Source of the DNA: Halarcobacter ebronensis
GTDB taxonomy: Bacteria > Campylobacterota > Campylobacteria > Campylobacterales > Arcobacteraceae
DNA: 64,000 nucleotides
Direction of reading: 5' to 3'
Assembly: GCF_013201825.1 (NCBI RefSeq)
Contig: NZ_CP053836.1
Coordinates: 806,001-870,000 of the forward strand
In this document: in pieces, positions 517 to 43,915 of the stretch
Layout of the letters: every line of letters begins with the position of its first letter
Position numbering within the stretch: position 1 is the stretch's first letter
Translations under genes and position numbers: made by a program
The notes under the pieces: model-generated
Databases searched by the model: none
What the model was told of the DNA's origin: nothing
What the model saw: the letters and a program-made list of their open reading frames with translations, nothing else

Positions 517-1363
517 ACTCTCATTGTTTGCTAAACTCTCAATCTCTTTGGTTGTTTTTTGGTTAATACTTTTTGCACTTTTCCCTAATCTTCTTGTAAT
601 AGGAATTAGTTTTTTAACAAAAAGCGAAAGTGATTTTTTTACCTTTGCTTTTTCAACTGAGAGTTATACAAAACTTTTAAATCCAGTCTATTTGTCTGTA
701 TTTTTAGACTCTTTATATTTGGCTTTTATTACAACAGTTATGACTTTGATTTTAGCTTATCCTTTTGCATATATAATAGCAACTGTTCCAAAAAAGTATA
801 AGTTTTTACTACTACTTCTTGTAATAATTCCTTTTTGGACAAGTTCATTAGTTAGAACCTATGCTTTAATTGCAATACTAAAAACAAAAGGTCTTTTAAA
901 CGCTTTTTTACTTAGCCTTGGACTTATAAATGAACCCTTACAGATAATGTACACAGAAGTTGCAGTTTTTATTGGTATGGTATATACTCTTTTACCTTTT
1001 ATGATACTTCCACTTTATGTTTCAATAGAAAAAATAGATTTTAAACTTGTAGAAGCAGCAAAAGATTTGGGAGCTTCAAAACTAAATATTTTTAAAACAA
1101 TTATTATTCCTCTTTCACTTCCTGGAATTATAGCAGGAAGTACTTTGGTCTTTTTACCAGCACTTGGAATGTTCTTTATTCCTGATATTTTAGGTGGTGC
1201 AAAAGAGCTTATAGTTGGAAGTTTTATCAGAAATCAATTTTTACTATTTAGGGATTGGCCGTTTGGTTCAGCAGCATCAGTTATTTTGCTTATTATTATG
1301 TTTATAATGTTGGCATTTTTAGCAAAATCACAAAAAATAGAGTCTTCAAGGGATAAAGCATGA
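509..1363 (+). CDS. potB: Spermidine/putrescine ABC transporter permease PotB
   Basis: Inner-membrane permease of 284 residues with about six hydrophobic helices. The cytoplasmic EAA loop, which docks on the ATPase, is visible as [20 protein letters not shown] near residue 180. The length and helix pattern fit PotB rather than PotC, which comes next. It starts inside the end of potA (8-base overlap) and its stop overlaps the potC start (ATGA). That arrangement implies translational coupling and equal amounts of the two permease subunits. The polyamine specificity comes from the operon context, chiefly the binding protein. Confidence 0.92.
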
Positions 1364-39430: not shown

Positions 39431-40921
39431 TTATATTTTTTTAAATTCTTTTATAATCTCTTCTATTGGTTCAATTCCAACAGAGATTCTTAAAATATCG
39501 ATTGGAAGTTCAATCTTTTGTAAAAACTTTTTTCCTTCTTCTGTTTTGATTAAATCATAGTGAGCCAAATAGGTGTAAGGCATAAGAAGAGTAAACTCTG
39601 TACCCAAACTTGGACCCTTTGCAAAGTTTAGTCTGTCATAAACTTCCCTAAAAGGTTTTGTAAAAGTTACTGAGATAATGCCAGTGTAGCAGTTGTCATC
39701 TATCATAGCTTGAGAGTAGTTCTCTTTGTTTGTTTCATCAAGGCAATAATAGAGTTTGTCTATTAGAGGTGAAGTTTTAAAATACTCAACTAATGCTTTG
39801 GTATTTGAAGAGATTTTTTTAACTCTTTTTTCATAATCTTTTATTTCATATGCTAATCTTTGGATATCTTTTATATATACTTTTTCACAGTGTTTAAAAA
39901 ACTCACCACTCATATGAGATAGTCTATTTTTTTTATTTAAAATCAAAGCTCCCATTAAAACATCTGCATTTCCACAAGCAAATTTAGTTAAAGACTCCAC
40001 AAAAATATCTGCATAATCTGTTAAATCAAGATTATAAGGAGTTGCAAAAGTTGTATCTATTACAAGGGGAATATTATACTTATCACAAAGCGCTCTTAAT
40101 CTTTTTATATCAACACATTTTAGAAGTGGATTTGTTGGCATTTCAGTTATAATTGCAGTTACTTTAAACCCATCTTGTTTTAAAAAATCTTCTAGCAAAT
40201 CAAGGTTGGCAATATCAGAAAATACCTTTTGTCTTTGGAAGTGATGGTTTACTATATTCATAGTATCTAAATATAGCCATCCAAATTGAACTAAAATATC
40301 TCTTCCATTGTGGGTTTGGATTGTATTAAGAGCTCTAACCACAGAATATATGGCATTCATTCCAGAGGGCGTTAGAGCTATATTTTCTAAGGGCTGTTTA
40401 TACGCTTTTGCCAAAGTAGTTTTTACAATAGTTTGGGCATTTTTACTATCTTCTAACTTCTCTTTATGAAGTGAATCAATAAGCTTGTGTTTATAAAGAT
40501 AATCTTCAGCTAATCTTGAAGAGAGGTTACATCCCACGTGTTGAATATAACTTAATACTTTTTGTAGTTGTGAAGTCCCATTTTGAACTAAAATTACACC
40601 AAAAGGTTCATTTATATCAATTTTATTGTAGATGTAGTATTTATCACTTACAAGTTCAACAGCTTTTTTTGAGCTTAGAATTACAACCTCATAATTATCA
40701 CTTATTTGATACTTTTTCTTAATATATTTAGCTAGTAATTTTAGATATGGATGTAAAATAAATCTTGGATATCCACTTTTTATAACTTCTAAGGTCTTTT
40801 TATCTTGTTCTTCATATCCAATTACATCATCTAGCGTTGGCATAGATACGGAAACAGCATGGATATTTTTAATTGGCAGGGTTTCTCCTGCAACTATAGG
40901 CTTAAAAAAACTCTCATTCAT
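39431..40921 (-). CDS. Cys/Met-metabolism PLP enzyme with fungal STR2-like N-terminal extension
   Basis: 496-residue enzyme of the cystathionine gamma-synthase fold. The PLP-binding Lys is in VESLTKFACGNADVLMG (near 315). NPL/MPTNPLLKCVDI and VIDTTFATPYNLD are conserved in the family. About 150 extra residues precede the catalytic domain and begin with AVSVSMPTLDDVIGYEE, a pattern shared with fungal cystathionine gamma-synthases (Str2/Met-7 type), which are also long. It follows the 383-residue paralogue with zero spacing, so the two may act in sequence or as a complex in transsulfuration or methionine synthesis. Confidence 0.82.
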   Translation of the reverse strand: MNESFFKPIVAGETLPIKNIHAVSVSMPTLDDVIGYEEQDKKTLEVIKSGYPRFILHPYLKLLAKYIKKKYQISDNYEVVILSSKKAVELVSDKYYIYNKIDINEPFGVILVQNGTSQLQKVLSYIQHVGCNLSSRLAEDYLYKHKLIDSLHKEKLEDSKNAQTIVKTTLAKAYKQPLENIALTPSGMNAIYSVVRALNTIQTHNGRDILVQFGWLYLDTMNIVNHHFQRQKVFSDIANLDLLEDFLKQDGFKVTAIITEMPTNPLLKCVDIKRLRALCDKYNIPLVIDTTFATPYNLDLTDYADIFVESLTKFACGNADVLMGALILNKKNRLSHMSGEFFKHCEKVYIKDIQRLAYEIKDYEKRVKKISSNTKALVEYFKTSPLIDKLYYCLDETNKENYSQAMIDDNCYTGIISVTFTKPFREVYDRLNFAKGPSLGTEFTLLMPYTYLAHYDLIKTEEGKKFLQKIELPIDILRISVGIEPIEEIIKEFKKI

Positions 40922-42142: not shown

Positions 42143-43807
42143 CTATGCTTTTTGTTCGGCATTTGTAACTATCTGTTTTTCTCTGAATATAAGATGTGGA
42201 TCTTCGTAGTATTGCCCCCAATCTTTAGAGTTATTCTTTTCTCCAAGCGTTAAAACTAAGCCTTTTATATCGCTTCTTTCTATCTCAAACTCTTTTAAAG
42301 AAAACATAGCTTTACTAAAAGCATTTCTTACCATTGGGTTATTCTGGGAAGTAATAACTATCCCATCATCTTTTAAAACCTCTTTTATTAGCTTTGCAAA
42401 CTCGAAAGTAACCAGAGAAGGGTTTAAATTTGGTAAAAAACTATCTAAAAAAACTATATCATATTTTTTTGTCAATTTTGTGATTGAGTATCTTGCATCA
42501 TCAATAATTAGTTTTAGATGATTCTTTTCATCCTTATACTCTAACTTTTTAAAGATTTTTTCTAAAATCTCTTTTTCGTCTTTTTCTTTTATTAAACTAA
42601 CTGCCTGTTTTATAATAACTCTATTTTTATCTAAAGCTGTAATATTTAGGGCATTTTTCTTTTTTAGTTTCATTGCACAAAGAGTATTGTAACCCATACC
42701 AAAACCAATATCTAAAAGTTCAACATCTCCTTTTTCCAATCTTTGCTCTAGGTTTGATTGTTTTATAAAAAGCTCCTTAGCCTCTTTATAGGCTCCAGCT
42801 TTTGCATGGTAGTAATCTTTATAGCTTTTATCCCAAATTGTAATACTTCCATCTTCAAGATTAAAACTATTTTGCTTTTGTATTGGAACTTCTATTTTTT
42901 CAAGGAAATCCCCTTGAAAGAAACCGCCATTTAGCATGGCTTCATTTATATACTCTATAAACTCACCCTTTTGCATATTCCACAAAGGGGCTATTAAATC
43001 AGTTGTAGGAGTATCTGTTGAGACTCTAATTATTGGGATATTTTTTGGAGTATTACGTATTAGAAAAATCAGCTCATTTGCATATTCATACTCCATCAAA
43101 GTTTTAAAAGGTTTTTTTTCATACTCTTTTTGAAGGGCTGTATTTTTTATAATATGGAGATTATGTATTTTTATTCCATCAACGCCAGCTTTTACCGCCC
43201 CATTTAAAGTATTTAGCCAATCTTCTCTACTCTCCCCTTGAAAACCCACAATTATATGGGCAAAGATTTTTATACCATACTCTTTTAATTTTTTAATAGC
43301 CTCTAAAGAGGTTTTAGAGTCGTGTCCTCTATTGATATTTACTAAAGTTTTATCATTTAGGGTTTGAACGCCCAAATCAACATATACATCAATATCTTCA
43401 TTTAGCTCTTTTAGATACTCCAAGGTACTTTTACTTAAGCAATCTGGTCTTGTTCCAATGCTAATAGCTTTAAAGTTATAAAAACTAAGAAGCTCTTTAT
43501 AGCTTTTTTTTTGATTTATTACAGAGGTAAAAGTTCCTGTATAGGCTTGAATATAGAGCATAAACTCTTTTGCCTTGTATCTTTTTTGGGAAAAATCTAT
43601 TGCTTTTTCTATTTGCTCTTTTACACTTTGTGCATCTAAAGTTTGAGCTGCTCTAGCTCCATTTGAGGGACAAAAGGTACAACCACCTAGATTGTTTTCA
43701 TCTCTATTTGGGCAACCTAAATCCAAATCAACTGGAATTGAGTGTAGAGTTGTGCCATATTTGTCTTTTAGAAATTTTTTAAAAGTGAAGTAGGGGGCAA
43801 TTTGCAT
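42143..43807 (-). CDS. Radical SAM (TIGR01212/YtqA-MnmL type) fused to MnmC-type tRNA methyltransferase
   Basis: 554-residue two-domain enzyme. Residues about 1-300 form a radical SAM domain of the YhcC/YtqA group, with the 4Fe-4S cysteines in the family's CPNRD...GGCTFC pattern (C32, C43, C46). Residues about 310-554 match the MnmC N-terminal methyltransferase: a YYHAKAGAYKEAKELF entry motif, SAM motif LDIGFGMGYNTL (near 365), VFLDSFLPNLNP and SQNNPMVRNAFSKAMF. In Bacillus subtilis, YtqA (MnmL) trims cmnm5U to nm5U in tRNA and a separate methyltransferase (MnmM) makes mnm5U; MnmC2 does that last step in enterobacteria. The fusion would do both. Monocistronic. Confidence 0.86.
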   Translation of the reverse strand: MQIAPYFTFKKFLKDKYGTTLHSIPVDLDLGCPNRDENNLGGCTFCPSNGARAAQTLDAQSVKEQIEKAIDFSQKRYKAKEFMLYIQAYTGTFTSVINQKKSYKELLSFYNFKAISIGTRPDCLSKSTLEYLKELNEDIDVYVDLGVQTLNDKTLVNINRGHDSKTSLEAIKKLKEYGIKIFAHIIVGFQGESREDWLNTLNGAVKAGVDGIKIHNLHIIKNTALQKEYEKKPFKTLMEYEYANELIFLIRNTPKNIPIIRVSTDTPTTDLIAPLWNMQKGEFIEYINEAMLNGGFFQGDFLEKIEVPIQKQNSFNLEDGSITIWDKSYKDYYHAKAGAYKEAKELFIKQSNLEQRLEKGDVELLDIGFGMGYNTLCAMKLKKKNALNITALDKNRVIIKQAVSLIKEKDEKEILEKIFKKLEYKDEKNHLKLIIDDARYSITKLTKKYDIVFLDSFLPNLNPSLVTFEFAKLIKEVLKDDGIVITSQNNPMVRNAFSKAMFSLKEFEIERSDIKGLVLTLGEKNNSKDWGQYYEDPHLIFREKQIVTNAEQKA

Positions 43808-43915
43808 TTTTTTCCTTTTGCGAATTATATTTGTTTTTCTATTAAAAATTAAAGGAGTAATAAAGTTGAACAGAACTTATCTATTTTGTTAGGTTAAATA
43901 TAGATTATTTTAATT

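Follow-up and report, generated by a model that had tools for sequence, protein, structure and literature searches.

A fusion of an MnmL-like radical SAM half and an MnmC2-like methyltransferase half in Halarcobacter ebronensis and its putative role in wobble uridine modification

In E. coli the bifunctional MnmC (MnmC2-MnmC1) brings both finishing steps of the wobble uridine together in one protein, with an FAD oxidase as first-step domain located behind the MnmC2 domain. Asp178 of this enzyme has been proposed as the base, Glu101 anchors the SAM ribose, and the two sites of the enzyme are about 45 Å apart, with channelling being considered implausible (PMC3648344). In Bacilli the radical SAM protein MnmL/YtqA is paired with a methyltransferase encoded by a separate gene, which adjoins the MnmL gene in three Bacilli. 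The abstract of the 2024 paper in J. Bacteriol. naming MnmL reportedly mentions fusion proteins, and the architecture described below may already have been noted there. A stand-alone, unfused MnmC2 is known from Aquifex aeolicus (DUF752, 3VYW), and Elp3, which also has the radical SAM fold, acts at C5 of the wobble uridine, carries an acetyltransferase domain and yields cm5U. PMC12548931 cites the 2024 paper on MnmL.

A single protein with an MnmL-like and an MnmC2-like half

We analysed a window of 64,000 nucleotides (positions 806001-870000) of the one-contig genome of Halarcobacter ebronensis, which comprises 3,170,683 bases and is 99.99% complete. One of its genes encodes a single protein uniting a radical SAM half of the MnmL/YtqA family with a methyltransferase half of the MnmC2 type (Table 1). 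Its parts are known families and the joined form is a variant of these. The plus strand across the gene contains many stops and the coding strand is the minus strand. No RNA elements were found close to the gene, and promoter and terminator scans there gave counts no higher than those of shuffled sequences.

Table 1. Features of the fusion gene (positions within the window; residues numbered along the protein)
Feature	Position	Strand	Basis
Fusion gene, 554 aa, MnmL-like radical SAM half and MnmC2-like methyltransferase half	42143..43807	-	ORF, profile matches, model
Radical SAM half, residues 1-303 (TIGR01212, Radical_SAM, Radical_SAM_C)	42899..43807	-	profiles, alignment; Elp3-like fold, Z 23.3
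Cluster cysteines C32, C43 and C46	43712-43714, 43679-43681 and 43670-43672	-	alignment
MnmC2-like half, residues 310-554	42146..42880	-	profiles, alignment, fold
Sites of the MnmC2-like half: SAM loop GFGMG 368-372, ribose-binding acid D393, candidate base D455, tail motif Y-x-D-P 534-537			
Shine-Dalgarno-like AAAGGA ahead of the ATG at 43807	43813..43818	-	sequence reading

Both family assignments of a preliminary description, made from the sequence of the window, were borne out. In profile searches TIGR01212 (tRNA modification radical SAM protein MnmL/YtqA) matched residues 6-303 with 262.7 bits at a curated cut-off of 180 bits. The Pfam families Radical_SAM, Radical_SAM_C and Methyltransf_30 were all found above their cut-offs, with PF05430 reaching 55.8 versus a gathering score of 22. 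Only the MnmC2 profile NF033855 remained under its cut-off of 136 (residues 327-505, 87.5 bits), and as the stand-alone MnmC2 of the host also fails with 104.2 bits, this cut-off appears to be narrow. No MnmC1 domain or DAO match was detected in the fusion protein with the NCBIfam and Pfam profiles.

An AlphaFold2 model of the fusion, computed from an alignment of 19 fusion sequences, showed a mean pLDDT of 89.6 and a pTM of 0.89. Its C-terminal half matches the Aquifex MnmC2 3VYW with Z 27.8 and 2.0 Å over 231 residues up to the final residue, and thus has the same fold including the C-terminal tail, even if both share only 29% identity. Spermidine synthases and families beyond MnmC2/MnmC gave Z values of about 17 or less. 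For the N-terminal half the nearest solved structure is Elp3, the acetyltransferase domain of which has no counterpart in the fusion.

The cluster cysteines (CX10CX2C) are kept in all fusions long enough to include them, as in MnmL and YhcC. They are among 28 residues, out of 42 invariant across Bacilli MnmL, YhcC-like proteins and the stand-alone proteins of Campylobacterota, that do not vary among the fusions either. In contrast, the radical SAM half is changed at three positions invariant in Bacilli MnmL (F93, S167 and T264) and shares about 30% identity with Bacilli MnmL and likewise with YhcC. In the methyltransferase half LDIGFGMG (365-372) is invariant in all 24 aligned fusions. Alignment with E. 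coli MnmC assigns D178 to D455 (kept in 23/24 fusions), E101 to D393 (D or E in 24/24) and F180 to F457, with the GFGxG loop being kept as well. At W189, a position conserved between E. coli MnmC and stand-alone MnmC2, the fusions differ. The fusion resembles E. coli MnmC in its layout of two domains in one protein and in the active-site residues of MnmC2, and by analogy may share its two reactions, but a radical SAM domain before MnmC2 takes the position of the FAD oxidase behind it.

Origin and distribution of the fusion

In phylogenetic trees the radical SAM halves of the fusions group together (100/100), separately from Bacilli MnmL, YhcC and every stand-alone protein of Campylobacterota. 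The MnmC2 halves likewise constitute a single clade (99/97), to which neither stand-alone nor bifunctional MnmC2 belong. Between both trees the main groups agree, with Margulisbacteria and Planctomycetota being outermost. A single clade for each half and matching trees indicate that the fusion is old, and the simplest reading of these sequences is a single ancient fusion event, the product of which was then co-inherited and transferred. A local fusion of the host's own TIGR01212 and MnmC2 proteins was rejected, as the halves share only about 30-35% identity with them and fall into separate clades. The radical SAM clade joins neither Bacilli MnmL nor YhcC, and with its long branches the exact sister group is unsure. 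Given such a deep, separate lineage with about 30% identity, we infer rather than observe an activity equal to that of MnmL.

When GTDB species genomes were scanned with the C-terminal half, 18 loci were found, all of them fusions, in Sulfurospirillum, Sulfurovum, Arcobacter, Malaciobacter and further Campylobacterota as well as in one Margulisbacteria and one Planctomycetota record. No relative was found in viral contigs and phage carriage was therefore rejected, while plasmid records contained TIGR01212 matches only, none reaching 37% identity with the radical SAM half. On the 4.7 kb plasmid pSR1 of Selenomonas ruminantium (L242) a TIGR01212 protein located on a very long branch adjoins a B12-binding radical SAM protein, an unusual cargo for a plasmid of this size.

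In the host's family (f1) the fusion is present in 8 of 104 genomes, two from the host's genus (g1) and all six from genus g7. All eight lie near the same two PLP genes of Cys/Met metabolism, in G340 with an intervening kinase gene. The fusion gene of G340 and of the g7 genomes has SelO on one side and the PLP pair on the other; SelO directly adjoins the first PLP gene in five genomes of the host's genus that lack the fusion, pointing to a presence/absence difference of one gene at a single site. As the PLP pair occurs in 79 of the 104 family genomes, the neighbourhood looks inherited and not specific, and a functional link with the two downstream PLP genes was rejected. The PLP enzyme at 39431-40921 of the window, paired with a cystathionine gamma-synthase-like gene, has BesB as best NCBIfam match with 353 bits versus a cut-off of 800.

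Besides the fusion, the host genome encodes MnmE, a further TIGR01212 protein located near 391 kb (about 336 aa), a stand-alone MnmC2 near 256 kb (245 aa) and an MnmC1-type FAD oxidase near 1,792 kb (384 aa; 159 bits versus a cut-off of 174, with MnmC1 by far the best family). The fusion is thus additional in this strain, and losing its gene might leave mnm5U as it is. The preliminary description had named a bifunctional MnmC elsewhere in the genome as evidence against its pathway; none was found, but the split MnmC1-type and MnmC2 genes are its equivalent, which counts against the pathway in this organism and not in the fusion family as a whole.

In order to follow the enzymes across the phylum we tallied TIGR01212, MnmC1 (TIGR03197, E at most 1e-18) and the MnmC2 domain in 298 Campylobacterota genomes, a collection in which closely related genomes recur many times and independent events are few. 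No genome (0/298) has an MnmC2 domain while lacking both MnmC1 and MnmL. In family f10 (Sulfurospirillum and kin) the fusion is present in 15 of 17 genomes, in one of them (G195) as two pieces of one frame, and these 15 genomes, all at least 99% complete, contain neither MnmC1 (0/15) nor a second MnmC2 (0/15). MnmM was absent from all 28 genomes searched including all 17 of f10, although the same search was positive in B. subtilis and Lactococcus, and was therefore rejected as methyltransferase in these genomes. A stand-alone TIGR01212 protein is seemingly kept in most f10 genomes, but at least two fusion genomes of this family appear to be without one. In G383 (apparently identical to G240) and in the Margulisbacteria genome G395 the fusion was the sole TIGR01212 protein to exceed the cut-off, and MnmC1-like matches of more than 50 bits were absent. 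The one-contig genome G265 probably has no second TIGR01212 protein either, judged from its best TIGR01212 E-value of 1.2e-72, which implies about the 242.3 bits of the fusion itself. In G061, a complete f10 genome, MnmC1 is present and the MnmC2 domain, MnmL, MnmM and the fusion were not detected, so that either a very divergent methyltransferase is present or nm5U is the end product.

The other families show different combinations. In f3 MnmC1 is present in 97 of 101 genomes, mostly in ORFs of about 613 aa (bifunctional MnmC), and MnmL is absent in 100 of 101. In f2 MnmC1 is absent in 88 of 89 genomes, and MnmL and MnmC2 are both present in 64 and both absent in 21, with four exceptions. Ten f2 genomes from three genera (e.g. 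L012, L035 and L009) carry MnmL followed by MnmC2 on the same strand, with 17-34 bp between their matches; these adjoining genes, in the same order as in the fusion, look like the unfused counterpart of the same pathway. The 21 f2 genomes, mostly of genus g22, that are devoid of MnmL, MnmC1 and MnmC2 suggest cmnm5U as their end product. A stand-alone TIGR01212 protein is also encoded at L084:2664-3665, in a genome that carries MnmC1 and MnmC2, a situation comparable to that of YhcC beside the flavin oxidase in E. coli.

Proposed function and alternatives

We consider it fairly likely that the fusion is a bifunctional wobble-uridine enzyme with an MnmL-like step followed by an MnmC2-like step, standing in for MnmC1 plus MnmC2 in f10 and being accessory in the host. 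It probably performs both finishing steps on the wobble base alone, and the best reading is that a single protein leads from cmnm5U to mnm5U without a flavin oxidase. The reactions and their order, as predicted from the two families, would start with MnmEG supplying cmnm5(s2)U34. The MnmL-like half would then cleave SAM reductively and take the carboxymethyl group off to give nm5(s2)U34, and the MnmC2-like half would convert this into mnm5(s2)U34 by SAM-dependent N-methylation with D455 as base. In f10 the fusion would thereby replace two enzymes, and in H. ebronensis it may supplement the split MnmC1 and MnmC2 as a second, accessory route, plausibly at low oxygen. Radical SAM enzymes need no oxygen and MnmC1 is a relative of glycine oxidase, which makes an oxygen-free role of the fusion plausible also in a cell possessing MnmC1. 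The one-protein pathway of the preliminary description thus gained support from the 15 fusion genomes of f10, without MnmC1, other MnmC2 or MnmM, but could not be upheld as the pathway of the host, where the split set is present. Its idea that the substrate is carried directly between the sites is unsupported given the distance reported for E. coli MnmC, and we do not claim physical channelling between the two halves.

Several observations count against the two-step enzyme and have been used to weigh other explanations. The long branch of the radical SAM half, its altered residues and the stand-alone TIGR01212 protein that accompanies the fusion in most genomes and might perform the first step would all fit a protein whose methyltransferase half makes mnm5U from a product formed elsewhere, be it by the stand-alone TIGR01212 protein, by MnmC1 or by the bypass in which MnmEG makes nm5U directly with ammonium (PMC3648344), with the fused radical SAM half acting on another position or substrate. 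We regard this as unlikely, since both MnmC1 and any further TIGR01212 protein are missing from G383/G240, G395 and probably G265, the residues invariant in the whole family including those of the cluster are kept, and in f2 TIGR01212 proteins adjoin MnmC2 where MnmC1 is missing. Similarly doubtful is that the fused radical SAM half represents a third functional TIGR01212 lineage beside MnmL and YhcC, with the protein covering a wobble uridine modification, a tRNA subset or an oxygen condition beyond the split MnmC1/MnmC2.

The intact reading frame and catalytic residues in the host and the retention in 6/6 members of g7 argue against the fusion of the host being a redundant and dispensable duplicate of the split route that has no distinct role and may be on its way out. 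This explanation would account for the low share of fusions in the family, for the five genomes with SelO directly beside the PLP gene and for the full split set, but we find it improbable. The low share and the split set, together with the extra TIGR01212 protein of the host, also count against the two-step enzyme. That the whole fusion switched its function to a different U34 modification or a different tRNA subset, as the divergent clades of both halves and the loss of the W189 position might indicate, seems very improbable, as no other candidate for the mnm5 methylation was found in f10.

As a bifunctional wobble-uridine enzyme the fusion ties the recently named MnmL activity to an MnmC2 methyltransferase in bacteria without MnmM, and it offers a single protein for testing a flavin-oxidase-free path to mnm5U. 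Its distribution in Campylobacterota suggests that a flavin oxidase and a radical SAM enzyme swap places within one phylum: in f10 the fusion seems to have replaced the usual enzymes, and H. ebronensis carries it beside the full set.
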